DNA from: Cyclobacteriaceae bacterium
Lineage (GTDB): Bacteria > Bacteroidota > Bacteroidia > Cytophagales > Cyclobacteriaceae
Assembly (NCBI GenBank): GCA_019694875.1
Contig: JAIBBC010000001.1
Coordinates: forward strand, 620,001-684,000
Direction of reading: 5' to 3'
DNA: 64,000 nt
Below, piece by piece: positions 10,030 to 57,044 of the stretch. The notes under the pieces were generated by a model. It did no database searches and had not been told where the DNA came from. It saw only the letters and a list, made by a program, of their open reading frames with translations. The stretch's first letter is position 1; the number at the start of each line of letters is the position of its first letter. The position numbers and the translations under genes were made by a program.

Positions 10030-10040
10030 TCCCAGAGATC

Positions 10041-12813: not shown

Positions 12814-12827
12814 TATTTGAAACACCC

Positions 12828-24704: not shown

Positions 24705-25928
24705 TTAATGGGTATGACCTGCCATTGGGTCTGTTCCTTTTTTCAAAATGATTTCACTATACAAAAGGTACGCGCCAGTTATGGCGACTGTGTCACCTTC
24801 AGTTAACCCTTCGATAATTTCAACTTTCTCAAAATCTTCAATACCTGTCTTCACCATTTGTGGTCTGAATGTGTTACGACCTCGTTGTATATAAACATGG
24901 GTTCCTTTTCCATCACGGATCACTGCGTCAACCGGTAACGATAATGCTTTCTTACTTGAATGACTGAAGAACACCTGAGCCTGCATACCTGGCTTGAAAA
25001 CATGGGTTGGATTTGAGATCGAAGCCCTCATGGACATAATCTGTGTGTTGGCACGAAACTCGGGACTGAAAAATGTCACAATTGCTTCAACGGGTTGATT
25101 CTCGAAACCGCTTATTCTGACATTGATCTTATCGCCAACCTTTGCAAGTGTAGCTTCATTAGGGTAGAGTTCCGCTTCAAGCCAAAGACTCGATGTATTC
25201 TCAATTCGCATCAATGAGCCGCCTTCGGAAACATATTGTCCTTCAGATACTGAAATCTCTGTTACAATGCCCGAAGCAGGAGACAAAAATGTAATCCGAT
25301 TTTGTGCATTCTTATTTTTAGCCAGATCTTCAACCTGAGAATTGCTGAGTCCGTACAGCGTCAATTTTCTTCTTGCTGCATCAAGAAATGATTTGTATCG
25401 TGTTTCAGCTGCACCAAGTGCATCGTATTGTTCCTTAGCTAAAAGGAATTCCCTTTGAAGCGTAAGTATGGTTTCACTGTAGATTTCGTATAGTGGTTCG
25501 CCCTTTTGAATTGAGCGGCCTGTTTCTTTTACAAACAGTTTCTCAACCCTTCCAGGAGCTCTGCTGCTAACCACCTGTGATAGATCTTGATTTTCAACAA
25601 GCTTCCCATTAACGACAACGGTTTGACCGATGGATTGAACTGAAACTATTTGAGTCGTAATATTAGCAAGCTTTATCTGGCTGTCAGTTAGCATCAAGTC
25701 ATCTGTTGCGGCCGTTGTGTTGTCTGTTTTAGGCACGAGATCCATTCCACAGACTGGGCACTTACCGGGTCCATCCTGTACCACAGTAGGATGCATCGGG
25801 CATGTATACTTTTTAGCTGAGCTTTCTTCTTTGGCTTTGTCATGACCTGCATGTTCATCTCCCTGCTTTTCCTGTGAACAAGCAAAGAGTGTTGCTGCAA
25901 ACACTGATATGATTAAAATGCGTTTCAT
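24705..25928 (-). CDS. cusB: CusB-like RND adaptor with heavy-metal-binding domain 1
   Basis: A 407-aa periplasmic adaptor of a heavy-metal RND pump. It has a lipoprotein signal (FACS at about residues 14-17), a His-containing linker, a heavy-metal-binding motif (YTCPMHPTV...CPVCGMDLV) and then the usual hairpin, lipoyl and beta-barrel domains. The barrel/lipoyl junction reads ITFLSPASGIVTE. It starts one base before the end of the preceding adaptor gene's spacer and shows the same architecture, so two adaptors are encoded back to back. It may pair with one of the two split permeases. Confidence 0.9.
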   Translation of the reverse strand: MKRILIISVFAATLFACSQEKQGDEHAGHDKAKEESSAKKYTCPMHPTVVQDGPGKCPVCGMDLVPKTDNTTAATDDLMLTDSQIKLANITTQIVSVQSIGQTVVVNGKLVENQDLSQVVSSRAPGRVEKLFVKETGRSIQKGEPLYEIYSETILTLQREFLLAKEQYDALGAAETRYKSFLDAARRKLTLYGLSNSQVEDLAKNKNAQNRITFLSPASGIVTEISVSEGQYVSEGGSLMRIENTSSLWLEAELYPNEATLAKVGDKINVRISGFENQPVEAIVTFFSPEFRANTQIMSMRASISNPTHVFKPGMQAQVFFSHSSKKALSLPVDAVIRDGKGTHVYIQRGRNTFRPQMVKTGIEDFEKVEIIEGLTEGDTVAITGAYLLYSEIILKKGTDPMAGHTH

Positions 25929-25929
25929 C

Positions 25930-27243
25930 TTATTTATTTGTTTTGATGAAGCTTTCGCTATCGACTAAGTATTGAGCATTGCTGGCAATTTCATCCGATG
26001 ATGAAAGGCCTTGCTTAATTTCTATTTGATTTTCTGTACGTACCCCTGTCACAACTTTTTTTGGCTTAAACACATTCTTCACTTTAATAAAAACTACTTC
26101 TTCAACACCAAGATCAACGACCGCTTCTTTGGGCACCCACAATGCTTCAACTGAGTTACTCTCAATCACAGCTTTTACCAGGTGACCAATATGCAGCCGA
26201 TCTGTATTCTTCGTATAGACTCGAACTGTAAGAAATTCCTGTCCTTCATTGAAGAAAGGTTGCACGAAGTCGATCGTTCCCGATTCACCATGTTGATCAC
26301 CAAAATCGAGCATTACTTTACCACCCTTCTTCACGGTGCCAGTGAGAGTTGAAGCTATGTTCAATTCAACTCGCAATGCCGAAGGATTGACTACTTTAAA
26401 TAGTGTCTGGCCGGATGCTACATAGCTTCCTTCCCGGATAAGAACATTATTCGCATTTGTATTCGAAGTACCTGAAGACGCTTGAGGTGATGTACCTGTA
26501 CTTCCGCTCATTCCGTCATTCATTCCTCCAGTAGATGCCGAGGCATTTTGCGATGTCATAGGGGCAACAGGTGTTTGTTGCGTATCAGAAATTATATAGC
26601 CATCATAAGAACTGTAAATTGAAAAAGTACTCTTTGGCTCTTTGCTTTGAATGAGATCATTGATCTGCCCTTCGCTCGAACCAAGAAGTTTCAGGCGCTC
26701 TTTCGCGCTTTGGATCAGTGCTTGATTTTCCGAGTCATTCTCTAATAAGAAGATTAGTTCTCGCTGAGCCGTCAATAATTCAGGGCTGTAAATCTCAACG
26801 ACCTTTTGCCCCTTTCGCACTTTCTGAAAAGCATATTTGAGAAATACCTTTTCAAGCCGACCACCGATACGAGTTGGAATTGTATAAATGTTTCTGGTAT
26901 CATAGGTGACTACACCCTGAGCTGCTGTGGAAACGGGCATCGACTTGTATTCGCCTTTGATTGTTTTTATCGAAGCAATGACAGTTTCATTTGGAGATTT
27001 GAGCAGTTTTGAAAGGTCTTCTGTTATCTCAACTTCTTCGCCAGGGCGAGCTTTACGCACAAGATCCATTCCGCACACCGGGCATGTACTCGGTCTGTTA
27101 GAAATGACTGTGGGGTGCATTGGACATGTGTAAGTATCAGCATGCTCTGCATGCTCTCCACTTTTGTTACATGACGCAACCACTGCCAGTAACATTAGCA
27201 GTATTATTGCCAGTAGCAGGTTACTTCTCCAATTCCTTTTCAT
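25930..27243 (-). CDS. cusB: CusB-like RND adaptor with heavy-metal-binding domain 2
   Basis: A 437-aa adaptor with a lipoprotein signal (ASCN at about residues 23-26), the metal-binding motif YTCPMHPTV...CPVCGMDLV, and hairpin, lipoyl and barrel domains. A Ser/Thr/Gly/Asn-rich insert (about residues 225-265, with MNDGMSGSTGTS) in the barrel region is absent from the other adaptor. It overlaps the TolC gene by 23 bases. The insert marks it as functionally distinct, perhaps serving a different permease. Confidence 0.9.
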   Translation of the reverse strand: MKRNWRSNLLLAIILLMLLAVVASCNKSGEHAEHADTYTCPMHPTVISNRPSTCPVCGMDLVRKARPGEEVEITEDLSKLLKSPNETVIASIKTIKGEYKSMPVSTAAQGVVTYDTRNIYTIPTRIGGRLEKVFLKYAFQKVRKGQKVVEIYSPELLTAQRELIFLLENDSENQALIQSAKERLKLLGSSEGQINDLIQSKEPKSTFSIYSSYDGYIISDTQQTPVAPMTSQNASASTGGMNDGMSGSTGTSPQASSGTSNTNANNVLIREGSYVASGQTLFKVVNPSALRVELNIASTLTGTVKKGGKVMLDFGDQHGESGTIDFVQPFFNEGQEFLTVRVYTKNTDRLHIGHLVKAVIESNSVEALWVPKEAVVDLGVEEVVFIKVKNVFKPKKVVTGVRTENQIEIKQGLSSSDEIASNAQYLVDSESFIKTNK

Positions 27244-28474
27244 AGCTAACGATCATGTTAAAATATTCCTGATTCTTTTCGATGTACTCCATTTGCGCCA
27301 TGTTCAACGCTTCCCACGCATCGATTACAATTGGAAGCTGTTCACGATTCTCTTCATAGGCCAACATCAGAGTTTGGTAGTTTTTCTTCAATGCCGGGAT
27401 GATCTTCTTGTCATAATTGTCAAGTTGTTGCTTCATTCGTGCTAACTGTGAAGCCATGCCTGCAAGCATTCCCCGTGTTTCTATTAGTATTGCTTCACGG
27501 CCTTTCTTCATCGCCTCGATGTCATATTCCATTCCCTTCACCTCCGACTTGTACATTTTGGAAGACCACGGTGCAATAGGAATGGAAACCATTGCCATCG
27601 CGGTGAACTGAGTTGGCATATTGCCGATTGGTTGCATGTGATCAAATCTGATCTTGAAATCTGGTCTTGACTGATAACGTTGCAATTGTTGATTGAGCCG
27701 CATTACCTCGATAGTCTTGTCGATCTGCTTGATGTCACTGCGTTGTGAACTGAGTGCAGCTGTGTCATAAATTAATTGGTTGGGTTCATACTTGATTACA
27801 GTTGCTGTGTCAACCATGATCTGCGTTTCAACAGGAACGTTCATTAAACCTTTTAATCTATAGGAGCTTTCTTCAATAGTCCCGCTTGTCATTTGAATCA
27901 TGTTCTGCACTTCGCTCAGCCTGCCCTCGGCCTTATAAATGTTTCCAAGTCCTCCCTGATTGTACGGATATCTAATTCGTGCGAGTTTGATCATCAGCTC
28001 CATGATCCGCTCATTCTCCTTTAGGATTTTCATCTTTTCTTCAGCCACTAACCATTGGTAATACATCGTTTTAGCTTCGCTTCTCAACAGGTTGAATTGA
28101 GCAGAACGGTTTTGAGTTTCAACCGAAGCTTTTGATGAAAGGTATTTCCGATTAGCGTTTAGTTTTGAGGGATTAGTAATCTCTTGTTCGATTGAAAACA
28201 TCCATGCACCCTTATCTCTTTCGTCCATCAGCATCTGGTTCGGGTAAGGTGTCATAAAGGTTCCCGCACCAACCATCGGAGCCATCTGACTTCTTGCACC
28301 TTCCGAATATGTATTGAGAGCCTTGATCTTGTTGTCATACTCCTGCAACATTGGATTCTGCTTGTCAATGAGGTGAAGAACGCTATCTAGTGTAATCACC
28401 TGCGCACTTGCAAATGCGAAAACACCAAGCCAGAATCCTGTAAAAAAAAACGGTATTTTAATGCTTAGCTTCAT
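27221..28474 (-). CDS. TolC-family outer-membrane channel of the metal pump
   Basis: A 417-aa outer-membrane efflux protein with a signal peptide (residues 1-24) and two repeated long helical segments typical of TolC/CusC, here without the N-terminal Cys of lipoprotein CusC. It overlaps the adaptor gene by 23 bases and the C-terminal half of the permease by 17 bases. It is the only TolC-type gene in the window, so it probably serves both permeases. Confidence 0.88.
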   Translation of the reverse strand: MKLSIKIPFFFTGFWLGVFAFASAQVITLDSVLHLIDKQNPMLQEYDNKIKALNTYSEGARSQMAPMVGAGTFMTPYPNQMLMDERDKGAWMFSIEQEITNPSKLNANRKYLSSKASVETQNRSAQFNLLRSEAKTMYYQWLVAEEKMKILKENERIMELMIKLARIRYPYNQGGLGNIYKAEGRLSEVQNMIQMTSGTIEESSYRLKGLMNVPVETQIMVDTATVIKYEPNQLIYDTAALSSQRSDIKQIDKTIEVMRLNQQLQRYQSRPDFKIRFDHMQPIGNMPTQFTAMAMVSIPIAPWSSKMYKSEVKGMEYDIEAMKKGREAILIETRGMLAGMASQLARMKQQLDNYDKKIIPALKKNYQTLMLAYEENREQLPIVIDAWEALNMAQMEYIEKNQEYFNMIVSYEKELEK

Positions 28475-30383
28475 ATACTTCGAGTTTTCCGAATTTCCTT
28501 AGTTCATATTCTTTTGTCATCAAAAAGATGAGCGGGGTAACCAATAATATATGAGTAGAGGATGTAAGAACTCCACCGATCATGGGCAACACAATTGGTT
28601 TCATTACGTCACTTCCCACACCCGTTGCCCACAACACTGGAATCAAACCAAATAACGCCACACACACTGTCATGAGTTTTGGACGAAGGCGTTTAGCGGC
28701 TCCAGCAATTACATATTCTCTGAGCTCTTCGCGCGATATCGTTTCGCTTGAATTGCCTCTCAATTTCACAAGCTGTTGCATCGCGTCATTCAAATAAATG
28801 ACCATCACGACTCCTGTTTCTACAGCGATTCCGAACAATGCTATAAAACCAACCGCCACGGCCACTGAAAGATTCACACCATAGAAGTAAACCATATATG
28901 CGCCACCGATAAGTGCGAATGGCACAGTTATAAGACTGAAGAAAGCTTCGCGGATAGACTGGAACGCCAGATAAAGTGAAACGAATATGATTAGTAGCAC
29001 CACTGGTAGTATAATCATCAGTGTTTGCTTTCCACGAATGAGGTTTTCATATTGACCACTCCATTCCAGATAGTAGCCATTGGGAAGCACTCCAAGGTTT
29101 TTGTTCAAGGTCTCAATGGCTTCCTGAACAGTGCTTCCTAAATCACGATCTCTTACATTAAATAAGACAGCACCCCTAAGCAACGCATTTTCTGAAACAA
29201 TCATCGGAGGGCCGTTCTCGAATTTAATATCAGCGACTGCAGAAAGTGGGACTGTTCCTAGTGACGGTGTCTTAACCGGAATTCGCTTTAATTGTTCAAT
29301 ACTATTTCTATAGTCTTGAGATAAACGAACGCTGATCGTGAAGCGCTGACGTCCCTCAATGGTTTGACCAATAGGACTTCCACCAATAGCGGATTCAACG
29401 ACCATGTTGACATCATTCACACTCAATCCATATCTTCCTAAAGCTTCTCTGTTTACATCGATCGTGAGATATTTTCCTCCAGTGATAGGATCAACATACA
29501 AGTCTTTCACTCCTCGAACATCCGCAAGCGCTGCTTTTACTTTTTCAGACAACATAGCAATGCTATCGAGATTCTGCCCATACACTTTAACACCAACATC
29601 CGTTCTAATTCCGGTGGCAAGCATGTTAATCCTGTTGATGATTGGTTGAGTCCAGCCGTTCACAACTCCAGGTATTTGCATCTTCGCGTCAAGTTCGTTG
29701 ATAATGTCATTTTTAGTAATGCCTTCTCGCCAATCAGATTTTGGTTTCAGCATAATGATTGTTTCAATCATGCTGATAGGAGAGTTGTCGGTTGCAGTGC
29801 TCGCTCTACCCGCTTTACCTAATACTTTGTCTACTTCCGGAACAGACTTGATGATTTTATCCTGAACCTGGAGAATTCTTTTTGCCTCTTCATTTGATAC
29901 ATCAGGCAGTGTTACAGGCATGAAGAGAATTGACTGCTCGTCCAGTGGTGGCATGAATTCACTTCCAAGGCTAATCATCAACGGTACGCTAATCACCAAT
30001 GCAAGTATGTTAACTCCAATGGTTGTTTTGCGCCACTTCATGCAAGCGCGAATAATTGGCTCATAGATTCTTTCTAGGAACCGGTTGATCGGATTATGCT
30101 TTTCATCCCTAAACCTTCCTTTCATAAAGAATGAAATAATAACAGGTGCAAGCGTTACAACCAGTATGGCGTCTACTAGCATGATGAATGTCTTCGTGTA
30201 TGCAAGCGGATGAAACAATTTTCCTTCCTGTCCGGTGAGCATGAACACTGGAAGGAATGATGTTATAATGATGATTGTTGAATAGAAGACACCTCGCGAA
30301 ACCTGCTTGGAGGATTTCTCGATGATCTCCAGCCTTTCGGTATCATCTATTTTGTTATATGCTTTTCGAGAGATGAGTTTCAT
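28458..30383 (-). CDS. cusA: CusA-type RND permease 1, C-terminal half (TM5-TM12)
   Basis: This 641-aa polypeptide is the second part of an HME-RND permease. It begins in the cytoplasmic loop after TM4 and holds TM5-TM12 and the second periplasmic loop. By eye, two of the three copper-binding methionines of E. coli CusA are kept (INMLATGI and GPPMIVSENA); the third is Leu (GRYGLSV). The start ATG lies 11 bases after the stop of the N-terminal half and in a different frame, with a stop two codons upstream, so it is not a simple readthrough product. The two halves sum to 1068 residues, the length of an intact CusA. Confidence 0.88.
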   Translation of the reverse strand: MKLISRKAYNKIDDTERLEIIEKSSKQVSRGVFYSTIIIITSFLPVFMLTGQEGKLFHPLAYTKTFIMLVDAILVVTLAPVIISFFMKGRFRDEKHNPINRFLERIYEPIIRACMKWRKTTIGVNILALVISVPLMISLGSEFMPPLDEQSILFMPVTLPDVSNEEAKRILQVQDKIIKSVPEVDKVLGKAGRASTATDNSPISMIETIIMLKPKSDWREGITKNDIINELDAKMQIPGVVNGWTQPIINRINMLATGIRTDVGVKVYGQNLDSIAMLSEKVKAALADVRGVKDLYVDPITGGKYLTIDVNREALGRYGLSVNDVNMVVESAIGGSPIGQTIEGRQRFTISVRLSQDYRNSIEQLKRIPVKTPSLGTVPLSAVADIKFENGPPMIVSENALLRGAVLFNVRDRDLGSTVQEAIETLNKNLGVLPNGYYLEWSGQYENLIRGKQTLMIILPVVLLIIFVSLYLAFQSIREAFFSLITVPFALIGGAYMVYFYGVNLSVAVAVGFIALFGIAVETGVVMVIYLNDAMQQLVKLRGNSSETISREELREYVIAGAAKRLRPKLMTVCVALFGLIPVLWATGVGSDVMKPIVLPMIGGVLTSSTHILLVTPLIFLMTKEYELRKFGKLEVYEAKH

Positions 30384-30394
30384 ACTTTAATATT

Positions 30395-31678
30395 TTATTT
30401 GTCCTCCGGGTTCAGTTCCGAGTATCGATGAGACAGATTCTTATAAGAGTTTTCTGCCATGATAATTCCGTTGTCAACAATCACTCCGATCGCCAGTGCA
30501 ATACCAGTCAATGACATGATGTTAGATGTTATGCCAAAGGCATTCAGCAGGATAAAGCTTGTAGCGATCGTGATTGGAATCTGGATGATGATACTGGCGG
30601 CACTTCTCCAATGGAACAGGAAGAGGATGACCACCAGAGACACAACAATCATTTCTTCGATCAGTGTTGTCTTGATTGATGATACGGCCTCTTCAATCAA
30701 ATGGCTTCGATCGTAGACGATATTGAATTTCATTCCTTGCGGAAACCCCTTTGCAACCTCTTCCATCTTTTTCTTCACTGCTTTGATCACTTCATCAGCA
30801 TTCTCGCCATAACGCATCACCACGATTCCGCCAACTACTTCGCCTTCACCATCCATGTCAAAGATTCCGAGACGCGTCTCTCCTGTCATCTGGACCGTAG
30901 CTATGTCGCTTACTTTGACTGGAACTGTATTAACAGTCTTTACAGAAATATTTTCAATTTCATTTACTGACTTAAGGTAGCCTGTTGTTTTAATGATGTA
31001 GCCAATATCACTTTGCTCAAACTTCCGTCCACCAGCCTCATTATTATTAGCTCGTATGGATTGGATAACCTCCTGTGCTGACAGCCCGTAATAGTTCAGC
31101 TTGTTCGGATCGACCGTGATTTGATATTGTTTTTGAAACCCACCGAACGATGCGAGTTCACTTACTCCCTGAACATTCTGTAATGCAAACTTTACATACC
31201 AGTCCTGGATAGCGCGTTGTTCGCCAAGATCCATTCCTGGAGCATCAAGGGTATACCAAAGGATATGACCAACACCGGTTCCATCCGGACCAAGGGTTGG
31301 GGTAACACCTTCTGGCAAAAGTCGTGTCGCATAGTTGAGTCGTTCGAGAACACGTTCGCGAGCCCAGTATACTTCAGTTTCATCATTGAAGATGACGTAC
31401 ACGAAACTCATTCCAAACATGGAAGCGCCCCGTACATATTTAACCTGAGGAAGACCTTGAAGGTTTGTTACCAGTGGATACGTTACTTGATCCTCTATTA
31501 TTTGAGGACTGCGGCCCATCCATTCCGTAAAAACAATCACCTGGTTTTCGGAGAGATCAGGTATCGCATCTATTTTATTTACTTTCACCGAAAAGACTCC
31601 CCAGGCGAATAATCCTACTGCTACCAGCAGTACTAAGAATCTATTTCGAAGAGAGAAAGATATTACGCTTTCAATCAT
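30395..31678 (-). CDS. cusA: CusA-type RND permease 1, N-terminal half (TM1-TM4)
   Basis: This 427-aa polypeptide holds TM1, the first periplasmic loop and TM2-TM4 of an HME-RND heavy-metal permease. The TM4 proton-relay Asp is in GVIVDNGIIMAENSY, matching D405 of CusA by eye. It stops after a short cytoplasmic tail (SELNPEDK) exactly where CusA continues into TM5. The complementary half starts 11 bases later. Because the break falls in a cytoplasmic loop, both halves could insert and assemble. It could also be a frameshift, but the second permease of the window breaks at the same place. Confidence 0.88.
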   Translation of the reverse strand: MIESVISFSLRNRFLVLLVAVGLFAWGVFSVKVNKIDAIPDLSENQVIVFTEWMGRSPQIIEDQVTYPLVTNLQGLPQVKYVRGASMFGMSFVYVIFNDETEVYWARERVLERLNYATRLLPEGVTPTLGPDGTGVGHILWYTLDAPGMDLGEQRAIQDWYVKFALQNVQGVSELASFGGFQKQYQITVDPNKLNYYGLSAQEVIQSIRANNNEAGGRKFEQSDIGYIIKTTGYLKSVNEIENISVKTVNTVPVKVSDIATVQMTGETRLGIFDMDGEGEVVGGIVVMRYGENADEVIKAVKKKMEEVAKGFPQGMKFNIVYDRSHLIEEAVSSIKTTLIEEMIVVSLVVILFLFHWRSAASIIIQIPITIATSFILLNAFGITSNIMSLTGIALAIGVIVDNGIIMAENSYKNLSHRYSELNPEDK

Positions 31679-31772
31679 GACTTAAAATAAAGAATGTAAA
31701 AGAGAATTATTGTTATCGCTAAGACATAGCGATTACGCTAAGAGCAGAATGCCCTTCAATCGAATGAATAAA

Positions 31773-32180
31773 TCAGATTAAGAAAACTTGGTGCGCGACC
31801 GTGAGGTCGCAAGATCGCAAGGGCGGATCGTAGTTATAATATTGGATGCGAGTAATCGATGAAGCTGGAATTACTTCTGAAATAAGAACGGCTGGTTGCT
31901 CAATATCGATCGGAGCCGGAGTAACAATATGATTGTGTTCGATTGAACCTTTGAAATCAATGCCCTCATGAAAGACAAGTTCATCTTGGCAGCAAGCAGG
32001 TTTCATGTGCTTATGGCAAGCAGGTAAAGCTTTTTCTACCTGGCAGCTTTCAGCTTTTCCAAACAAGGCAACGTTTTGAACTTCTCCCCCACATAAATGC
32101 ATGCCGACCATGAAACTGGTAGATGAAACCAGCACCAAGAAGGCTAACAATATGGCTGATATGGAACGGATTAGCTTCAT
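31773..32180 (-). CDS. HYC_CC_PP-family small secreted protein
   Basis: This 135-aa protein has a signal peptide (residues 1-25) and the family pattern: MHLCGG in place of HYC, then CHKHM, CC (ACCQDE) and YDPP near the end. Such proteins are known only from Bacteroidota metal-resistance clusters and are thought to bind copper through Cys and His. It is the first gene of the long copper run, with 94 bases before the permease. The family is recognised by pattern; no reaction is known. Confidence 0.8.
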   Translation of the reverse strand: MKLIRSISAILLAFLVLVSSTSFMVGMHLCGGEVQNVALFGKAESCQVEKALPACHKHMKPACCQDELVFHEGIDFKGSIEHNHIVTPAPIDIEQPAVLISEVIPASSITRIQYYNYDPPLRSCDLTVAHQVFLI

Positions 32181-32324
32181 TTTATACCCAAATCTAACGC
32201 AAATCTCTGAATTTGGATTTATACTTAAATATAATTCAGTTACATAATTCCATAAAAAGGGGCTAAAAACTCATTTTATTATTCTTCCCCCTCCATATGC
32301 ATATAAATGCTTAAGTAATTTTAA

Positions 32325-33050
32325 CTAATGCACAATCACCATGTATATCGCCATTGCTACCATTAAAAGATCCTCAATAATGGTAACCGTGCTCATGGGG
32401 AGATTAAAAACGGCCCCTAAGCATGCACACTTTATTTTTTTCTTATCCAAAACGCTTTTGATTACACCAATGCTGCTAAACCCCATCACAATAATAGTTG
32501 CCCAGTTGGTGAATACAGGATTAAAACCGGTAAGAAAGGCAAGACCTAATGCCAATTCGATGAACGGATAAACAAAGCCATAAGCAGGCACCTTCATAGC
32601 CAACAAATCATACATCGCATAACTATTAGCGAACCCTTTCAAGTCTAAAAGTTTGAAAAAAGAAAAAACCAGAAAGAATCCAGCCATAAACGTATTCATA
32701 CCGGCATGCAGACTTCCGTTTGCAGTCACAATTGAAACACCTGCTATAAAACCCGCGATCAGTAACAGTGGTTTGTATGTAACTAACCAATTTTTTGCAT
32801 CATCAGTCTTCATCGTGTGGTGACCGTGGTCAGAAGCATCTGTACTAATTCTATATTTTGTATCAGCACCAATTGCCTCTTGAAGTTCTTCAACAGTCAG
32901 GTGCTTTTGCATGGTTATGACTGCTTTCTGGCCTTCAAGTTTCACATCGGCCGAAAGAATATCAGGATGCATAAGTAGCTTACTTTTTACCTTAGCCACA
33001 CAACCTTCGCAGGTGATTCCTTTAACTGTATATGAGTGTGTCATTGTCAT
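32325..33050 (-). CDS. HMA domain fused to MauE/DoxX-like membrane protein
   Basis: A 241-aa protein with an N-terminal heavy-metal-associated domain (GITCEGC, C14 and C17) and four to five membrane helices resembling MauE/DoxX redox-associated proteins (residues 95-241). A pair of Cys (IKCACLG) lies between helices. It would receive or pass copper at the inner membrane. The Met at residue 3 is an equally good start. It is divergent from the plus-strand genes that follow, and an imperfect TTAATTGAT/ATCAAATTAA palindrome at 33063-33082 lies just upstream. Confidence 0.8.
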   Translation of the reverse strand: MTMTHSYTVKGITCEGCVAKVKSKLLMHPDILSADVKLEGQKAVITMQKHLTVEELQEAIGADTKYRISTDASDHGHHTMKTDDAKNWLVTYKPLLLIAGFIAGVSIVTANGSLHAGMNTFMAGFFLVFSFFKLLDLKGFANSYAMYDLLAMKVPAYGFVYPFIELALGLAFLTGFNPVFTNWATIIVMGFSSIGVIKSVLDKKKIKCACLGAVFNLPMSTVTIIEDLLMVAMAIYMVIVH

Positions 33051-33249
33051 CGCTTTTTCAGTTTAATTGATAATCAAATTAACGGTGATACGAAGGAAAC
33101 GGAGTTACATAATTTTAGAAAAGAGTTACATTTTAGCCGGTTTCTGATTTTGATGGCTGATTCCAGATTTATTTCTTAATCAATAGAGCTATCTTTATTA
33201 GTTGCTTGTCGTTTGATGATAATCACATCACAACAAAAAAAATTTGATT

Positions 33250-33879
33250 ATGACGTTAACACCCCGCTTGAGCAAATTTGTTTTAACCTCGCACATCACT
33301 GTTTCCGTTGGCTGGCTAGGTGCAGTGGTGGTTTTTCTGGCACTCGCTATAACAGGTTTGACCAGCTCCAATACTCAATTGGCAACTGCGAGTTACCTCG
33401 CGATGGAAGTGTGTGCCTGGTTCGTAATCATTCCGCTTTGCTTATCTTCCCTTTCAACTGGCTTATTACAGGCAATCGGCACAAAATGGGGATTGTTTAA
33501 ATATTATTGGGTAGTAGTGAAATTATTCCTGACTGTGGTCGGCACAATCCTTTTACTACTTCACTTACAGCCGATCAGTTATTTGGCTGGAATAGCAACA
33601 GACGTATCCTTTACGTCAAACGAATTGGGATTGCGGATAGACCTAGTTCAAAAGTCGGCCTTAGCAATAATACTATTGCTCACTGCTACAACTCTTTCGG
33701 TGTACAAGCCTTGGGGAAAAATTCAAGCTAGAGCGAGTGCGGCAGTAACAAATAATGTTGATCAATTAATAACTACTGCTCCAAAGTCGCGGAACTCTTA
33801 CATGCTTATCGGGCTAGTATTGTTGATTATAATTTTTATCATTATTCACCTGCTTGGCGGAGGGATGGGAAAGCATTAA
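33250..33879 (+). CDS. DUF2269-like integral membrane protein
   Basis: A 209-aa protein with about five membrane helices, starting at the ATG at 33250 rather than the TTG two codons earlier. The N-terminal LTSHITVSVGWLGAV resembles DUF2269-type membrane proteins with a His in the first helix. It is the first gene of the plus-strand metal segment. No function is known; the family assignment is tentative. Confidence 0.65.
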   Translation: MTLTPRLSKFVLTSHITVSVGWLGAVVVFLALAITGLTSSNTQLATASYLAMEVCAWFVIIPLCLSSLSTGLLQAIGTKWGLFKYYWVVVKLFLTVVGTILLLLHLQPISYLAGIATDVSFTSNELGLRIDLVQKSALAIILLLTATTLSVYKPWGKIQARASAAVTNNVDQLITTAPKSRNSYMLIGLVLLIIIFIIIHLLGGGMGKH

Positions 33880-33901
33880 TACTCTTTTCAGACTTTATTG
33901 A

Positions 33902-34093
33902 ATGCAAGAACAAACCATCATATTCGGAGTTCCCGTTCTTTCAGCTTTTGTAACCGTCATCATTCTTTCGTTTATGCGTTGGCCTTTTAATATTCACTTA
34001 CTCTTTATCGGAGTTTTCGCTACTGCGTTTTCAACTATCGGTCGAATAAAATCCCACCAACCACTATTTGGACAATTGAAACTGAGAGTGTAA
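33902..34093 (+). CDS. 63-aa hypothetical membrane protein
   Basis: A short frame with one or two membrane helices (VPVLSAFVTVIILSFM and IHLLFIGVFATAFS) in a gap between the DUF2269-like gene and the arsR gene, same strand, 22 bases after the former. A basic tail follows. Nothing was recognised. It could be real because it fills the gap, but codon evidence is weak. Confidence 0.45.
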   Translation: MQEQTIIFGVPVLSAFVTVIILSFMRWPFNIHLLFIGVFATAFSTIGRIKSHQPLFGQLKLRV

Positions 34094-34100
34094 TTTAGCG

Positions 34101-34118
34101 TTTGCTTAAATAAGCAAA
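34101..34118. promoter_or_regulatory. Perfect 8-bp palindrome, likely ArsR operator
   Basis: TTTGCTTA and TAAGCAAA are perfect arms around AA and end one base before the arsR start codon. ArsR/SmtB repressors bind such AT-rich inverted repeats over their own promoter or start, so this is the probable autoregulatory site. Binding is inferred from position and symmetry. Confidence 0.6.
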
Positions 34119-34119
34119 T

Positions 34120-34491
34120 ATGAAAAACACATGCATTAGGGTTTTTGCTGATGTCAATCAAATTAAAGCCTGTAAAGAGAAGATAAGCCATGTTGACAAA
34201 GGGGCGGAACACCTTGCAAATTCACTTAGTTTGGCCGGAAACGGTGTAAGACTGAAAATATTATTTCTCCTTCAAGAAGAAGGTCAGCTTTGTGTTTGCG
34301 ACTTGAGTGACATTTTAGGAATGAATATATCGGCTATTTCACAGCACTTGAGAAAACTAAAGGATGGAAAAATAATCCTTTCGAAAAAGACAGGACAAAC
34401 TGTTTTCTATTCGGTCAGCCCTGAATACACAAACATTTTTAGACCAATCTTCAAATTAATTACTGACAACAAAATTTTAGAATTGATATGA
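34120..34491 (+). CDS. ArsR/SmtB-family metal-responsive repressor
   Basis: A 123-aa winged-helix repressor. The core (LSLAGNGVRLKILFLL through ISQHLRKLKDGKII) is typical ArsR/SmtB, and C58/C60 in LCVCDL are the alpha3-type metal ligands; further Cys at 5 and 18 may complete the site as in CadC. It would leave its operator when Hg, Pb, Cd or Cu binds. It overlaps the MerTP fusion gene by ATGA, so it controls the uptake/sequestration genes that follow. The metal cannot be named from sequence alone. Confidence 0.9.
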   Translation: MKNTCIRVFADVNQIKACKEKISHVDKGAEHLANSLSLAGNGVRLKILFLLQEEGQLCVCDLSDILGMNISAISQHLRKLKDGKIILSKKTGQTVFYSVSPEYTNIFRPIFKLITDNKILELI

Positions 34492-35666
34492 AATCGCAAC
34501 TTGTTTTAAGTGTCTTGACAGCGCTGAGCGCATCAATGTGTTGCATAACTCCGGTTCTTGCTCTTGCAGCAGGAACAAGTAGTTTAGCTGCGTCATTCCA
34601 TTGGATTGAACCATTCAGACCTTACTTCGTTTCTTCATCAATCTTAGTTTTAGGTTTCGCCTGGTTTCAATCATTTAGGACTTCTAAAAAAGACGTTGAT
34701 TGTAATTGTGAAACTCCTAAAGAGAAATCATTTTTTCAGTCAAGAACATTCTTAAGTATTGTAACCATTGTTTCATTTCTGTTAATCACTTTTCCATCCT
34801 ACTCGAAATTTTTCTTTAATAATTCAGTTTATCAAACGGGACAACAGCAAAGTAAGAATAAGAAGATTGAGCTAAACGTTTCAGGAATGACATGTACATC
34901 CTGTGAACTTCACATTGAAAGTGAGGTTAAAAAATTACAGGGTGTTTCATTTGTAAAAGCATCCTATGAGAAAGGTTCAACGACTGTAGAGTTTGACGAA
35001 CAGAAAATCAAAACTGACAGAATCATTCAAGCCATTAACCAGACTGGATATAAAGTTGAACAAGGAAAGAAAGAATTAACGCTCCAAGACCAAGCAGGAA
35101 ATTGTTGTGCTAATGGTACTTGTAAAAATCACACGGGTAACTTGCCGACAGAAGTGAACAGGAATTTGAAACTGCTCTCAAGCGTTTCTGAAATTCAGAA
35201 AACATTTAATCAACAAAATGGCAAAACTAAATTTGTAGCTATCTTATCCTCTACCTGCGGCTGGTGTTTACAGGGAGCTGAATCCATTCAAAAAACTGTT
35301 CTTGAGAAAATAAATGATAAGAACATTAGTCTAATTATTGTTTGGACAAACATGCTGAAAACGGACGATCAAAACAGTGCTTATAAAGCGGCATCCTTGT
35401 TTAAAGACCCAAACATTGTTCAATACTTCGACTCTGAAAATAAATTTGGCGACATCGTTGCGAAAAGGTTAAATCCACAAGGCAAAAAAGCCTGGGACAT
35501 TTACATGTTCTTTGACAAAGAAACGCTATGGAGTAAAGACTTTCCGAGACCGTTTGATTATGTCCATCAGTTAAGTTCTGAGGCTCATCCTTGGGTTGAC
35601 AAGACCAAATATTTTTGTGGATCTGAGTTAACAAAAAGGCTGGACGAGATTGTAACTACCCTTTAA
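34488..35666 (+). CDS. MerT-MerP-thioredoxin triple fusion
   Basis: A 392-aa protein with a MerT-like membrane domain (Cys pair C18-C19 in MCCITP, three membrane spans up to about residue 115), a MerP/HMA domain with GMTCTSC (C136, C139) and a C-terminal thioredoxin-like domain (residues 225-392) with CGWC at 257-260. The first two parts form the MerTP fusion known from Bacteroidota mercury loci, usually about 200 aa; the thioredoxin part is an extra 170 residues. A Cys-rich linker (NCCANGTC) joins them. No MerA reductase is visible nearby. Mercury import or metal relay is inferred. Confidence 0.85.
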   Translation: MKSQLVLSVLTALSASMCCITPVLALAAGTSSLAASFHWIEPFRPYFVSSSILVLGFAWFQSFRTSKKDVDCNCETPKEKSFFQSRTFLSIVTIVSFLLITFPSYSKFFFNNSVYQTGQQQSKNKKIELNVSGMTCTSCELHIESEVKKLQGVSFVKASYEKGSTTVEFDEQKIKTDRIIQAINQTGYKVEQGKKELTLQDQAGNCCANGTCKNHTGNLPTEVNRNLKLLSSVSEIQKTFNQQNGKTKFVAILSSTCGWCLQGAESIQKTVLEKINDKNISLIIVWTNMLKTDDQNSAYKAASLFKDPNIVQYFDSENKFGDIVAKRLNPQGKKAWDIYMFFDKETLWSKDFPRPFDYVHQLSSEAHPWVDKTKYFCGSELTKRLDEIVTTL

Positions 35667-35672
35667 TATAGA

Positions 35673-35888
35673 ATGGAAACAACAGTTATTCTAAATTCAA
35701 TAATTGCCTGCCCGTCTTGCGGATTTAAAAAAGAAGAGGTTATGCCTACAAATGCATGCCAATACTTTTATGAATGCGAAAACTGCAAGACTCTTTTAAA
35801 ACCAAAAGAAGGTGACTGTTGTGTGTTCTGCACATACGGGACGGTAAAATGTCCGCCAATCCAGCAATCAAAAAATTGTTGCGCTTGA
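35673..35888 (+). CDS. GDCCVxC-motif small protein
   Basis: A 71-aa Cys-rich protein with CPSCGF, CENCKTLL and the hallmark GDCCVFCTYGTVKCPP. The family is a GDCCVxC-domain protein, in some relatives a selenoprotein at one Cys, found after MerTP genes in Bacteroidota. It starts 6 bases after the MerTP fusion stop. It probably binds metal with its two CxxC pairs and the GDCC motif. All key positions are ordinary Cys codons here. Confidence 0.85.
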   Translation: METTVILNSIIACPSCGFKKEEVMPTNACQYFYECENCKTLLKPKEGDCCVFCTYGTVKCPPIQQSKNCCA

Positions 35889-35938
35889 ATATTGTGCCTC
35901 ACACAGCATACTTGCAATGGCCGGCCCAAAATGGCAAC

Positions 35939-37822
35939 TTAGTCTTCTAGCAACTTGTAATCTAATGACCCATTTCGATGCAATTCCCGCTCTCTTATAT
36001 ATGCGTAGATTACCGGCAGCACGATCAGCACAAAAATCGTTGAGGTCAAAAGCCCGAACACAAAAGGAATCGTGATAGGCTTCATCACATCACTTCCCGT
36101 TCCAGTAGCAATAAGCACAGGCATCAATCCAATCACATCCACAAGCACCGTCATTAGTTTAGGTCGGAGTCTTTGAACAGCACCTTCATAGATTGCATCT
36201 TCGATAATCTCGTTTGTGACTTGTCCTGTCGTATGATTCTTCAGTTTGAAATATAGAGAGTTGTTCAAATACACGAGCATCAAAACCCCGGTTTCAACTG
36301 CTATCCCAAACAATGCAATAAATCCAACAGCTACCGCCACCGAGAAGTTAACATCAAAAAAGTGTAATGAGTATGCTCCGCCAACCAATGCAACAGGAAT
36401 ACTACTCAGTACGATCAGTACTTCTCTCAAACTATTAAAAGTAAAGTATAGTACTACAAGGATGATTAGAAGAACGATGGGGATGATCACCATCAATCTA
36501 TTCTGCGCTCGCACCTGGTTTTCGTATTGACCGCTCCAATTTAAATAGTAGCCCTTGGGTAGATTCGTTATCGCTTTTTCAAGGCGCTCCTTTGCTTCGG
36601 CAACAGTACTACCCATATCCCTACCCCTAACATTGAAAAGTAAAGTCCCACGAAGCATTGCATTCTCGGAGTTGATCATTGGCGGACCTTCAGTGACAGT
36701 TATTTCGGCTACAGATGACAATGGAATCGGGCCGAGATTCCTTGTTTGCACTTGAAGGCTTTTGATTTGATTAATTGTGTTTCGGAAGTCTTGTGCAAAA
36801 CGGACACTAACAGGAAAACGCTGACGTGCTTCAATAGTGGTTGTTGCATTCATTCCTCCCAATGCCGTTTCAATAAACATATTAACATCGTCTACCGTCA
36901 AAGCATATCGGCCTATTTCATCTTTTTTGATCCTAATATCAACATACTTTCCTCCAACGATAGGCTCGACATACAAGTCGGCCACTCCATCGAGTCCTTC
37001 GAGTTGTTTCTTGAATTCATGTGCGAGCACATTGATCGAGTCCAGACTCTGTCCATATATTTTGATCCCAACGTCCGTTCTTATCCCCGTGGAAAGCATG
37101 TTTATTCTATTAATGATTGGTTGAGTGTAACTATTTATCACTCCTGGTATCGCCAGTTTACTATTCAATTCTCGAATTATATCGTCTTTCGAAATTCCTT
37201 CCCGCCATTCGCGTTGTGGTTTTAAAATGATCATAGTTTCAATCATGCTGATTGGAGCATTGTCGGTTGCAGTATTGGCACGTCCCGCCTTACCCAACAC
37301 ATTCTCCACTTCGGGAACCGACTTAATAATTTTATCCTGCACCTGAAGTAATCGTTTTGCTTCATTGTTGGAGATATCCGGCAATGTAACGGGCATGAAT
37401 AGTAGTGAACCTTCATCCAGTGGCGGCATGAACTCTGTTCCAAGGTTAATTACTAATGGCACACTTCCCAGTACAAGTGCCAATGCGAGACCAAGGGTAA
37501 CTTTTTTCCATTTTAAACACCACCGTATAACCGGTCCATACAACCACATGAAGAATCGGCTGATCGGATGTTTACTTTCGGGTTTTACTTTTCCCTTTAA
37601 AAACAAAGCCATCAATACAGGTACAAGCATGATTGCTACAAATCCTGATCCGATCATCGCGAACGTTTTGGTCCAGACCAGAGGAGAGAAGAGTTTGTGT
37701 TCCTGACCAGTAAGAAAAAGAATTGGACTGAATGAGATTAGTGTAACGAGAATAGAACTCACCACAGCTTTACCTATTAACCGTGATGACTTTTCAATCT
37801 TGTCTATTCTGGTTTCTTCCAT
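35939..37822 (-). CDS. cusA: CusA-type RND permease 2, C-terminal half (TM5-TM12)
   Basis: This 627-aa polypeptide covers TM5-TM12 and the second periplasmic loop of an HME-RND permease, paralogous to the one at 28458-30383. The Met positions INMLSTGI and GPPMINSENA are kept and the third is Leu (GRYALTV), the same pattern as copy 1. Its ATG lies one codon after the in-frame TGA that ends the N-terminal half. The halves sum to 1049 residues, a full CusA. It is the last gene of the eight-gene minus-strand operon and has no adaptor or TolC gene of its own. Confidence 0.88.
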   Translation of the reverse strand: MEETRIDKIEKSSRLIGKAVVSSILVTLISFSPILFLTGQEHKLFSPLVWTKTFAMIGSGFVAIMLVPVLMALFLKGKVKPESKHPISRFFMWLYGPVIRWCLKWKKVTLGLALALVLGSVPLVINLGTEFMPPLDEGSLLFMPVTLPDISNNEAKRLLQVQDKIIKSVPEVENVLGKAGRANTATDNAPISMIETMIILKPQREWREGISKDDIIRELNSKLAIPGVINSYTQPIINRINMLSTGIRTDVGIKIYGQSLDSINVLAHEFKKQLEGLDGVADLYVEPIVGGKYVDIRIKKDEIGRYALTVDDVNMFIETALGGMNATTTIEARQRFPVSVRFAQDFRNTINQIKSLQVQTRNLGPIPLSSVAEITVTEGPPMINSENAMLRGTLLFNVRGRDMGSTVAEAKERLEKAITNLPKGYYLNWSGQYENQVRAQNRLMVIIPIVLLIILVVLYFTFNSLREVLIVLSSIPVALVGGAYSLHFFDVNFSVAVAVGFIALFGIAVETGVLMLVYLNNSLYFKLKNHTTGQVTNEIIEDAIYEGAVQRLRPKLMTVLVDVIGLMPVLIATGTGSDVMKPITIPFVFGLLTSTIFVLIVLPVIYAYIRERELHRNGSLDYKLLED

Positions 37823-37825
37823 AAC

Positions 37826-39094
37826 TCAATTTGTTTCGGCTTCACCACCTATGGTTTTCATCGCATTTTCCACCATGACTATTCCTGCATCAACCAAATC
37901 ACCTACTGCTAATGCAACCCCTGCTAGCGACATGATGTTTGATGTAATTCCAAACCACTTCATTAGTATGAAAGCAAATAGAACTGACACAGGTATTGTA
38001 ATAACGACAATGAAGGCGCTCCTTACATGCAACAAAAAGATGAACAGAACAATGGCCACCACGATGATTTCTTCTGTAACCGCTTCCTTTAAAGTATCGA
38101 TTGTTGCATTGATCAAATCTGACCTGTCATATGCAGGCTTTATGTTTATTCCGGCAGGTAAGCCTTTTTTGATGTCTTCGATTTTGTTCTTCACGCGATC
38201 GATAACCTGCTTGGCATTTTCACCGTATCGCATGATTACTATTCCCCCAACTTTTTCGCCTTCACCATTCTCATCCACAATACCCAGCCGCAAGTCTCCT
38301 CCCATTTGGACTGTTCCAATATCTTTCACCCGAACAGCAATTGTGTTTTCCGATTTGAGTGGAATGTTTTCAATTTCATTGATACCCTTTATGTAGCCCG
38401 TGCTTTTGATGATATATCCGATGTCCGATAACTCAAACTTGCGTCCACCTACTTCGTTGTTATTCTCCTTAAGCTTATTAACTACATCCATCAACGTAAT
38501 ATCATAGTAACGTAGCTTCAATGGATCGACCACAACCTGATATTGTTTTTGATAGCCACCGAACGATGCAACTTCGCTAACACCTTCGACTGTCTGAAGT
38601 CCGAACCTTATGTACCAATCTTGCAATGCTCTCAGTTCACCTAAGTCATAGCCAGGAGCATCAAGAGTATACCAGTATACATGACCTAAACCTGTTCCGT
38701 CTGGACCAAGTGTTGGGGTAACATTTTGAGGAAGCAAACGGGTTGCATAGTTTAATCTTTCCAGCACGCGAGCACGAGCCCAATAGATGTCGGCATCATC
38801 TTCAAAAATGATGAACACGAAACTCATCCCGAACATGCTCGCACCGCGGATGTTCTTTACTTTAGGTATCCCCTGAAGATTTGAAGTAAGTGGATACGTT
38901 ATCTGATCTTCGATGATCTGAGGGTTTCTTCCCATCCACTCGGTATAGATGATAACTTGGTTTTCTGATAAGTCCGGGATAGCATCGACAGGTGTATTAT
39001 AGACAGAATAGATGCCGTAGATTATCATGATTGAATACATGATAATCACCATCCATTTGTTTTTTATCGACCAGCTTATCAGTTTCTTGATCAT
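37826..39094 (-). CDS. cusA: CusA-type RND permease 2, N-terminal half (TM1-TM4)
   Basis: This 422-aa polypeptide has TM1, the first periplasmic loop and TM2-TM4, with the TM4 Asp in GDLVDAGIVMVENAM. It ends (GGEAETN, then TGA) at the same cytoplasmic loop as the N-terminal half of copy 1. TGA, GTT and ATG follow in one frame, so only a single stop codon separates the two halves. It overlaps the PRPP synthetase gene by ATGA. Confidence 0.88.
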   Translation of the reverse strand: MIKKLISWSIKNKWMVIIMYSIMIIYGIYSVYNTPVDAIPDLSENQVIIYTEWMGRNPQIIEDQITYPLTSNLQGIPKVKNIRGASMFGMSFVFIIFEDDADIYWARARVLERLNYATRLLPQNVTPTLGPDGTGLGHVYWYTLDAPGYDLGELRALQDWYIRFGLQTVEGVSEVASFGGYQKQYQVVVDPLKLRYYDITLMDVVNKLKENNNEVGGRKFELSDIGYIIKSTGYIKGINEIENIPLKSENTIAVRVKDIGTVQMGGDLRLGIVDENGEGEKVGGIVIMRYGENAKQVIDRVKNKIEDIKKGLPAGINIKPAYDRSDLINATIDTLKEAVTEEIIVVAIVLFIFLLHVRSAFIVVITIPVSVLFAFILMKWFGITSNIMSLAGVALAVGDLVDAGIVMVENAMKTIGGEAETN

Positions 39095-39966
39095 TGTAAC
39101 GCGTCAATGATTATTGAACTAAGATCTATACCATTGCTGCTATGAGCAATAGTATTACAAGTTACTATTTGTGCTGCACCGGCTTCTTGTAGTTCCTGAA
39201 AAGAATTGTCGGCAAAGATCGCATGAACTCCTATGCAAATAGGTTTATTGAAACCAAGTTCCAGTAACCGTTTAGCAGTTACAATCATTGTATGTGCAGT
39301 TGAAATGATGTCGTCTACGAGCACGGGTGTACGCTCATGAAATGAACTGATTTCAGGAAATGAGATTTCGACATTTCTGTCTCCATGGCGTTCCTTGTTC
39401 AGTACAATGTACGGTGCATTGGCCAGGGCTGCTACCTGAGAAACCCATTGTTCACTTTCGGAGTCAGGGCCTATCAATAATGGATTTGATACAGAAGTTT
39501 TTATCCACGTGGCAATGGACTTTGATGCATGTAAAACCTTTGCATTCGCACTGTAGATCTCATTCATAGAATGATGTCTGTGCAAATGAGGATCTATTGT
39601 TACAAGCTCATCAATGAAAGGCGAAATTAATTCACTGAAATAGGTTGATGTGACAGCTTCACCAGGTTTGAATTGCTTATCCTGACGCATGTAAGCAAGG
39701 TATGGTGCTACGAGAGTAATCTTCGATGCACCCCCATCTCTGAGCAGGCGGAGTAGAAATACTAACGATAGAAATTTATCGTCAGGCCGATGTAATGTTG
39801 CGACCACGACAACTTCTTTGTCAAGTACATCTGTAATTAATCGCACATATGTTTCTCCATCTGGAAACTTTCTCATTTCAATTTCTCCTAATGAAGCCAT
39901 TAAACCATCTACTATGTAGGCTGCGATATTTTCGTTTCCTTGAAATGCTATAACAATCTTTCTCAT
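39091..39966 (-). CDS. prs: Ribose-phosphate pyrophosphokinase (PRPP synthetase)
   Basis: This 291-aa enzyme would make PRPP from ribose 5-phosphate and ATP. It has the N-terminal Pribosyltran_N fold (MRKFPDGETYVRL, TLHRPDDKF), the metal-binding region (TIDPHLHRHHS) and the PRPP-binding loop VLVDDIISTAHTM. It is shorter than housekeeping Prs (about 315 aa) and of the divergent class often next to phosphorylases. It overlaps both neighbours by ATGA, so it is made with the phosphorylase upstream and the permease downstream. Confidence 0.9.
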   Translation of the reverse strand: MRKIVIAFQGNENIAAYIVDGLMASLGEIEMRKFPDGETYVRLITDVLDKEVVVVATLHRPDDKFLSLVFLLRLLRDGGASKITLVAPYLAYMRQDKQFKPGEAVTSTYFSELISPFIDELVTIDPHLHRHHSMNEIYSANAKVLHASKSIATWIKTSVSNPLLIGPDSESEQWVSQVAALANAPYIVLNKERHGDRNVEISFPEISSFHERTPVLVDDIISTAHTMIVTAKRLLELGFNKPICIGVHAIFADNSFQELQEAGAAQIVTCNTIAHSSNGIDLSSIIIDALQ

Positions 39967-41465
39967 ACGATGGTGACAATGGGGTTAACCGATGAAATGT
40001 ATGATTTAGCGTAGTTCATTTCTCCGTCTGATTCGGAATGAATTCGATAAATAAGATCGCCTTTGCTTATCTGGCTACCCAATGGTGCGAAGAATTCTAC
40101 GCCTGCTGCCACTGATTTTGGCGCACCGGCTAATTTTGCTACGCGGGCCAGTGTTCTATTGTCAATAGAAACGACTTTTCCAGAGTTGCTTGCCATTATA
40201 TCAAACTGCTTTGTCGAGGACGGAGGCTCTTTGAATCCGCCTTGAGCTTCGCAGATTCTGATAAACTTCTTGTATGCTGCACCAGATTCCAATATCTGTT
40301 TCGCTTGTGCAATTCCTTCGCGATATTTGCACGTTCCCGCCAATTCGAGCAACGCCCCAGATACAAGCAGTGCGCGTTCTTTGAGAGCAACCGAACATGA
40401 AGGGGAGTTTCTCAATACTGATAAAACATCGTGAGCTTCTAGCGCAGGTCCAATACCCTTACCTATTGGCTGAGAGCCATCTGTAATAATGGTGTTGACC
40501 TTAAGCCCGATTGAAGATCCTACTTGTTCAAGTTGTTTTTGCAAATGCAAAGCAGACTCATTGGTTCTGACCTTAGCTGTTGGTCCAACAGGAACATCTA
40601 TTACCACATGTGTCGATCCAGCGGAAACTTTCTTTGAAAGTACAGATGCGATCATTTGACCTTCGCTGTCAATGTCAAGAGCTTTTTCAACAGAGATAAG
40701 AATGTCATCAGCAGGACTGAGTTGAACTGCTCCTCCCCAAACCATGCAGCCACCTTCGGATTCAACTACTTTTCGCATTCGATCTATTGTCAGATCAACA
40801 GGTGTCATCGTTTCCATCGTGTCAGCTGTTCCAGCTGGGGAGGTGATCGCTCGCGATGATGTCTTTGGAATGATGAGACCAGACGCTGCAATGATACTAA
40901 CAACGATTGGTGTTGTACGATTGCCTGGAATACCCCCAACGCAATGCTTGTCTAAAATCAGTTCCTTGCCCCAGTCTAATTTTTGTCCAGTGCCAATCAT
41001 GGCCAGGGTAAGGCCAATAACTTCGTTTATATCAAGATTGTCATTGACACATGTCGTTATAAATGCAGCAAGTTCAATATTAGAATATCGTCCCGCTACA
41101 ATATCTCCGATTACATCGCTAAGAGATTCGTTATTGAACCGCTTACCATACATTTTACCACGGACATTCTTGAAGGACTCAATTGGATTTAAATGCACTA
41201 CTGAAACCGTATCTCCCGATTTGACATTCAGCCTCTTCATAGATTCAGCAGATAGCCCCGCCTCATGGTGTTCGATGATATCAGAAGTCACAACATTTAG
41301 AGTTGCTACTATACTCTTATTGCCATTGGTGACAACCACGCGAGTTAATGCGCTGAATCCCTCTGAACGGCAAACGTCACAGTCGTAACGCATGAAGACA
41401 ATATTCTCACGGTAAGTATCGATACCAATATTCTTTACTGAAAGACTGTTGTTATTATGAGTCAT
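39963..41465 (-). CDS. Thymidine/AMP phosphorylase family protein
   Basis: A 500-aa enzyme of the nucleoside phosphorylase II family. The extra N-terminal domain (residues 1-90) and overall length match archaeal-type AMP phosphorylase, which splits AMP with phosphate to adenine and ribose 1,5-bisphosphate; bacterial thymidine phosphorylase is about 440 aa. Family motifs KHCVGGIPGNRTTPI and SPAGTADTMETM are intact. The next gene is a PRPP synthetase overlapping by ATGA, so the pair may form a nucleotide-salvage route. The exact substrate is not decidable by eye. Confidence 0.85.
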   Translation of the reverse strand: MTHNNNSLSVKNIGIDTYRENIVFMRYDCDVCRSEGFSALTRVVVTNGNKSIVATLNVVTSDIIEHHEAGLSAESMKRLNVKSGDTVSVVHLNPIESFKNVRGKMYGKRFNNESLSDVIGDIVAGRYSNIELAAFITTCVNDNLDINEVIGLTLAMIGTGQKLDWGKELILDKHCVGGIPGNRTTPIVVSIIAASGLIIPKTSSRAITSPAGTADTMETMTPVDLTIDRMRKVVESEGGCMVWGGAVQLSPADDILISVEKALDIDSEGQMIASVLSKKVSAGSTHVVIDVPVGPTAKVRTNESALHLQKQLEQVGSSIGLKVNTIITDGSQPIGKGIGPALEAHDVLSVLRNSPSCSVALKERALLVSGALLELAGTCKYREGIAQAKQILESGAAYKKFIRICEAQGGFKEPPSSTKQFDIMASNSGKVVSIDNRTLARVAKLAGAPKSVAAGVEFFAPLGSQISKGDLIYRIHSESDGEMNYAKSYISSVNPIVTIV

Positions 41466-52670: not shown

Positions 52671-52890
52671 AGGAGGTAGCAGGGTAAAGTCAAAAAACGT
52701 ACCACAGGCTTTTTAGCCTAGAGTAAGTTATTACTTCATCATGACAATTACTGTCGGAATGCCTAAAAGTGCTAAATCAAAGAAATATGCAATAAAATTT
52801 AGGATGGGCTCCTGTTACAAGTTAAAGATTTGATTGGATATCGCTTCAGTTTCGAATCGTTATTCGTTAGACTGATCCATGAAGGTAAAT
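52671..52890. other. 220-bp spacer between two defence operons
   Basis: No gene was seen. It holds the 5' region of the SMC-like operon and follows the stop of the 603-aa HEPN-type gene. No clear promoter box or terminator hairpin was recognised. Confidence 0.4.
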
Positions 52891-54702: not shown

Positions 54703-54706
54703 TGAA

Positions 54707-55531: not shown

Positions 55532-55635
55532 CTCTGTTATCCTTTGGTTTCAACAAAGTTCCAAAGATTATTAGGTCATTTCAACATACAAAGGTGGAAT
55601 TTCATGACAACTTCTGTCGTTTTCGGGAGAGCATT

Positions 55636-56877: not shown

Positions 56878-57044
56878 GAATAATAGGGGATAGAGAAGGC
56901 ACTTACAAAAACAGTGTTGGCTGTTTCCTTAGCTTTTTCATACTCAATAAAATGTCTTTTAAGATAACTTATTTATTCGTCTTAATCGTGGCCTTAGACA
57001 ATAGCTGCGATAAAGATTTATTAAATTGATAAAAATGAAAAGAT

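Follow-up and report, generated by a model that had tools for sequence, protein, structure and literature searches.

Two CusA-type permeases of a Cyclobacteriaceae bacterium, each encoded by two genes, and the clade of split CusA pairs in Bacteroidota to which they belong

Two CusA-type permeases are encoded in the window analysed here (64,000 nt of a Cyclobacteriaceae bacterium; contig JAIBBC010000001.1, positions 620,001 to 684,000), and each is specified by two consecutive genes. Each is taken, with a probability of about 0.9, to be a split CusA in which two chains would assemble into one Cu(I)/Ag(I)-exporting protomer. An earlier note on this DNA had proposed a genuine two-polypeptide permease, and the proposal is supported by the breadth of the split in Bacteroidota, its phylogeny, the drift of the spacer between the genes, the insertion or permutation of other genes around the halves, the co-occurrence of the halves and purifying selection. 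The four ORFs described there were recovered with the same positions and lengths, all on the minus strand (Table 1).

Table 1. Positions in the window of the split permeases and the genes adjoining them
Feature	Coordinates	Strand	Basis
Permease 1 N half, 427 aa (TM1, periplasmic N domains, TM2-TM4; D405 equivalent)	30395..31678	-	ORF, Pfam, NCBIfam, CusA alignment
Permease 1 C half, 641 aa (TM5-TM12, periplasmic C domains; M573/M623/M672, E939, K984 equivalents)	28458..30383	-	ORF, Pfam, NCBIfam, alignment
Permease 1 spacer, 11 nt between TAA and ATG	30384..30394	-	
Permease 2 N half, 422 aa	37826..39094	-	ORF, Pfam, NCBIfam, alignment
Permease 2 C half, 627 aa	35939..37822	-	ORF, Pfam, NCBIfam, alignment
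Permease 2 spacer, 3 nt between TGA and ATG	37823..37825	-	
CusC-like outer membrane factor (OEP); 17-nt overlap with end of permease 1 C half	27221..28474	-	
CusB-like adaptor 1 (HlyD_D23 + HMBD)	25930..27243	-	
CusB-like adaptor 2 (HlyD_D23 + HMBD)	24705..25928	-	
PRPP-synthetase-like gene directly upstream of permease 2; 4-nt overlap with its N half	39091..39966	-	
Thymidine-phosphorylase-like gene, upstream of permease 2	39963..41465	-	

All four ORFs match Pfam ACR_tran, the N halves over positions 2-415 and 2-418 of the 1021 in the profile and the C halves over positions 416-1019 and 419-1020, so that each pair is nearly gapless. Among NCBIfam models, TIGR00914 (CusA/CzcA) scores best with every one of the four ORFs; of its 1051 positions, the halves of permease 1 cover 1-425 and 429-1036 and those of permease 2 cover 1-421 and 435-1040. 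No single half reaches the cut-off of this model (701.45), and permease 2 joined across its stop scores 1089.5. The model describes a single polypeptide of ~1040 aa with 12 transmembrane helices (TM); each permease here consists of two ORFs. The N half of permease 2 scores 475.6 bits for TIGR00914, versus marginal SecF/SecDF matches of 18-22 bits that lie far under the cut-offs of those models and do not place it in the SecDF family. When aligned to E. coli CusA, with which they share 46% (N) and 42% (C) identity in permease 1 and 48% and 41% in permease 2, both permeases prove to be interrupted in the cytoplasmic loop that follows TM4, as the earlier note had located it: the break follows the end of TM4 (..IENAHKRL) and precedes TM5, helix numbers being assigned by homology. 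The two permeases are 60% identical to each other in their N halves and 57% in their C halves. The boundary of the internal duplication in RND proteins lies between TM6 and TM7, and the split does not coincide with it.

The same break was sought in other Bacteroidota and was found widely. Within the genus of the window's organism, split halves occur in three of 16 other genomes (G003, G006 and G015), and the break is also present in the order-level genomes G029 and G034. A profile built from eight N halves was run against 291 genomes of the order. At a threshold of E<=1e-180, 53 of them gave 58 matches in total, 55 lying in short frames (395-515 aa) and three in long ones (1051-1056 aa). The split clade has a patchy distribution: the other 238 genomes lack a match at this threshold. 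Among 395 genomes sampled from the phylum, at least 30 N-half matches in frames of 425-475 aa were found in 24 genomes, and the C-half profile picked out the same 24 genomes, with at least 30 C halves whose frames measure 628-728 aa. These counts are lower bounds, as up to four N and three C candidates were scored per genome, and the equal numbers of N and C matches in each of the 24 genomes are firm for the 22 that gave fewer than three. Lower-scoring matches in the phylum sample are mostly intact, at 1023-1160 aa, with three of 797-913 aa; one short frame, in G530, ends at a contig end and was left out of the split count, and the lower-scoring match in G665 contains two internal stops. In all, 114 split pairs with differing N halves were gathered, which makes the split more than a chance event. 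The general statement of the earlier note that HME-RND permeases are single polypeptides therefore does not hold for this clade.

In a scan of named genomes, the best 80 of at least 572 loci are from Bacteroidota by title except for L166, a fused member from a metagenome-assembled genome (MAG) labelled Actinomycetota, and L171, from a MAG labelled Ignavibacteria. The L166 gene lies on a contig of 4319 bases and is possibly mis-binned Bacteroidota DNA. Genera among these 80 loci include Flavobacterium, Chryseobacterium, Sphingobacterium, Mucilaginibacter, Cytophaga, Runella, Pontibacter, Adhaeribacter, Chryseolinea and Parachryseolinea. In Mucilaginibacter robiniae and Haliscomenobacter hydrossis, the pair lies on complete plasmids and is annotated as two adjacent CDS, both named efflux RND transporter permease subunit and followed by TolC-family and adaptor genes. 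The gene table of a Spirosoma linguale plasmid (L192) has no CDS over its split permease, which the original annotation may have marked as a pseudogene.

Phylogenetic analysis suggests a single origin for the split. Entries were kept if the N half was near-complete and more than 400 C columns were aligned; these 124 split and 45 fused entries were reduced to 114 and 43 by removal of identical N halves, and 33 distant fused sequences were then thinned to nine. The resulting tree, with 114 split and 19 fused sequences in its 133 rows, requires four changes between the split and fused states. Four are also required in an IQ-TREE analysis of 80 of these rows, 62 split and 18 fused, in which the core split clade has a support of 100. 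Six fused members, L120, L070/L072/L083 and L166/L177, fall inside this core, and trees that place them outside it are rejected (AU p 1.4e-9). By parsimony, the four changes correspond to one fission at the base of the clade within Bacteroidota, which was inherited and duplicated, followed by three returns to a single gene, versus 13 fissions if re-fusion is forbidden. Permease 2 belongs to the smaller branch of the first fork of the split clade and permease 1 to the larger, so a single fission was inherited by both; the trees do not bear out the premise of the earlier note that the two permeases represent two unrelated break events. Among unsplit permeases, those nearest in the trees are intact Bacteroidota sequences of CusA type (e.g., L103, L107 and L108), which lie outside the split clade and, in contrast to its two genes, are single frames of 1049-1100 aa. 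Evolutionary distances of N and C halves are correlated (r=0.951 over 80 pairs, partly due to shared ancestry; permuted maximum 0.174). Purifying selection on both halves is supported by dN/dS values of 0.013-0.050 for N halves (23 pairs) and 0.012-0.049 for C halves (24 pairs) from 29 pairs tried, six of which gave no value for N and five none for C; dS exceeds 1 in many pairs, making those ratios rough.

The residues known to matter in E. coli CusA are distributed over both halves. In that protein the triad M573-M623-M672 binds Cu(I) together with E625, and D405, E939 and K984 are each required for transport, changes of K984 stopping it (PMC8092243, in the portion available). All of these residues are found in both window permeases, D405 in the N half and M573, M623, M672, E625, E939 and K984 in the C half. 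Across the split rows, with duplicates included, M573, M623 and E625 are present in 134 of 134 and M672 in 132 of the 132 with letters at that position; for the proton relay, the corresponding counts are 133 of 133 for D405, 83 of 85 for E939 and 76 of 84 for K984. The eight exceptions at K984 carry L or V (L043, L045, L167, L168 and L170; L154, L160 and L173), and the two at E939 carry Q (L152 and L164, where small ORFs resembling metal-binding proteins separate the halves). The methionine triad in the C half and a proton relay that spans both halves are the basis on which proton-driven export of Cu(I)/Ag(I) is proposed. AlphaFold predictions for the single halves of permease 1, each made from 26 sequences, reach medium confidence (pLDDT 69.7 and 66.8). 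For both, the top hits in the PDB are entries of E. coli CusA; normalised by model length, the TM-score is 0.62 for the C half (rmsd 11 A) and 0.51 for the N half (rmsd 13 A). These predicted models back a CusA fold only loosely.

One alternative is that the halves are separate functional proteins, the C half for example forming oligomers of its own, with no joint transporter. The C half carries the entire metal triad and has its own start, often with a basic leader, as such a protein would; D405 of TM4, which is needed with E939 and K984 in CusA (PMC8092243, in part), is nevertheless kept in every N half with letters at this position. Since the relay is shared between the halves, neither should work alone, and the occurrence of both in the same 24 genomes and the natural re-fusions nested within the split clade further reduce this alternative to a slim chance. 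The N and C halves are instead proposed, from their sequences, to form one complex. The N-half gene would supply TM1-TM4 and the N-side porter and docking domains, and the C-half gene TM5-TM12 and the C-side domains; the two chains would insert with the break point in the cytoplasm and assemble into a CusA-like protomer, the pump presumably consisting of three N and three C chains and driving proton-coupled Cu(I)/Ag(I) export with CusB and CusC partners. The C halves often open with a short basic leader, e.g. MKNKIKNIFKKE or MAKWFKRNKDPL, the first 15 residues from the chosen starts having a mean net charge of +2.1, and this leader may help to keep the new N terminus of the C half in the cytoplasm.

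A second alternative is that one long protein is made from both ORFs by read-through of the stop or by programmed frameshifting. Permease 2 is in frame across its TGA, as an expectation of read-through would have it; the junction of permease 1, where the ATG lies in a different frame from the TAA, has a stop in both frames. Among 152 N-half ORFs (duplicates included), a C-half frame opens within 600 nt in 127 and is absent from this range in 13; the other 12 are fused. The 127 junctions use all three relative frames (64/43/20), 20 of them being in the same frame. Measured from the N stop, the C start overlaps in 37 of 113 non-identical pairs and lies at 0-20 nt in 67, at 21-100 nt in six and beyond 100 nt in three; 104 of the 113 thus fall between overlap and +20 nt, 20 of these being 4-nt overlaps. 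As the plausible start closest to the N stop was chosen, these distances are biased toward small values, and one of the 114 split pairs is absent from them for want of a usable start. Close relatives are the most informative. In L110, L111 and L112, 91-95% identical to permease 2, the same stop (..EAETN stop) and the same C start (M[ED]ETRIDKIEKSS, with two consecutive ATGs in L111) are used as in the window, and the stop-to-start offset is +3 in the window, +2 in L110, -1 in L111 and +1 in L112. Likewise, relatives of permease 1 in L111 and L112 (95-96% identical) share its ..NPEDK stop and MKL[IF]SRK start at offsets of 10 and 9, versus 11 in the window. As both products are kept while their frame relation shifts, no shared recoding event can join the halves, and this drift of the spacer through all three frames is the strongest evidence from the junctions against read-through, frameshifting and sequencing error alike.

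The halves also persist although other genes separate them. Extra ORFs lie between them in L073, L189, L152 and L164, named by eye as methyltransferase-like in L073 and metal-binding-like in L152 and L164. In L156, L185, L178, G510 and G495, which form a single clade with a support of 99, the operon is permuted to C-CusC-CusB-CusB-N, with one split-type N match per genome and the C half of L178 cut by a contig end. In the draft assembly of G029, an unrelated gene comes after the N half, and the C half is found on another contig, 84 nt from the contig end. The C half of L078 lies across two frames and is perhaps a decaying copy or an assembly error. Synthesis of one long protein is on these grounds very improbable, and the genes of a split CusA are two cistrons, each with its own stop and start, presumably coupled in translation.

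That a sequencing or assembly error or pseudogene decay broke intact genes deserves next to no weight: only one in-frame TGA keeps permease 2 from being a single open frame and intact CusA-like genes are also present in the window's genome, yet this break is found again in many other assemblies, in isolates and on complete plasmids, dN/dS is low in both halves, and ORFs are inserted or gene order permuted between them. Internal stops in L009 and L010, other RND genes of this genome, proved to be apparent, as both are intact ORFs (1063 and 1017 aa).

Permease 1 heads a row of genes with a CusC-like and two CusB-like members, giving a tripartite Cus set with partner genes adjoining the permease as in E. 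coli CusCBA. No CusB or CusC gene was found directly beside permease 2 within the window. By tblastn among the best 80 of at least 572 named loci, CusC was detected in 56 and CusB in 59-60 of the 66 loci outside the permease 2 group, and in 12 and nine, respectively, of the 14 loci within it, counts in which paralogues may cross-hit and some loci are short. PRPP-synthetase- and thymidine-phosphorylase-like genes also adjoin split CusA in L110, L112 and L113, and follow the N half in L185. Between the two permeases of the window are genes for an ArsR regulator and then a MerT-HMA protein (34120-35666, plus strand). Genes for TnsD/TniQ, TnsA, a TnsB-like protein (rve, under its cut-off), TnsC/TniB and TnsD are found at 8296-16111 (plus strand), and by its gene content the region looks like a Tn7-like transposon with copper cargo, which would fit the patchy distribution of split pairs. 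Candidate defence genes lie at 49220-61857, among them adjacent weak JetD-like and LmuB-like matches, a SIR2-like gene and a Upx-like gene.

The two window permeases resemble E. coli CusA in domain order, in the methionine triad with E625, in D405/E939/K984 and in 41-48% identity per half. They differ from it in being encoded by two genes, split at the TM4-TM5 loop, rather than as one polypeptide of 1047 aa, and neither keeps the methionine-relay residues M271, M403 and M755. Division of an RND protein has a precedent in SecD/SecF, a protein of this superfamily that many bacteria make as two polypeptides and others as a single one; it is split at the internal duplication into 6+6 helices, whereas split CusA is divided into 4+8, is cut inside the first repeat and has a different function. 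MdtB/MdtC is a heterotrimer, with two gene products in one RND pump, of two full-length permeases, unlike the two fragments of one protomer in split CusA. The duplication history of MdtB/MdtC is treated in PMC8277102 (in part). No description of a split CusA/CzcA or other split RND permease was found in the titles and abstract openings of the top-ranked literature results, nor in the available portions of PMC11213822, PMC8092243, PMC6316836 and PMC8277102.

Neutral persistence of the split, with easy reversal, is taken as the default explanation of its maintenance. It is also conceivable, and rather unlikely, that the split is adaptive, in that the ratio of the halves could be tuned, as in the operons with CusC and two CusB genes between the halves, or in that halves of paralogues such as permeases 1 and 2 could form hybrid pumps with different metal preference. 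With split CusA, a whole Bacteroidota clade of CusA-type pumps would depart from the one-chain RND protomer, providing a natural and repeatedly reverted experiment in where such a protomer can be cut with its proton relay kept. For annotation, such gene pairs would be neither pseudogenes nor two pumps, and since each half is named a permease subunit in two plasmid gene tables, annotation-based counts of RND pumps could be inflated.
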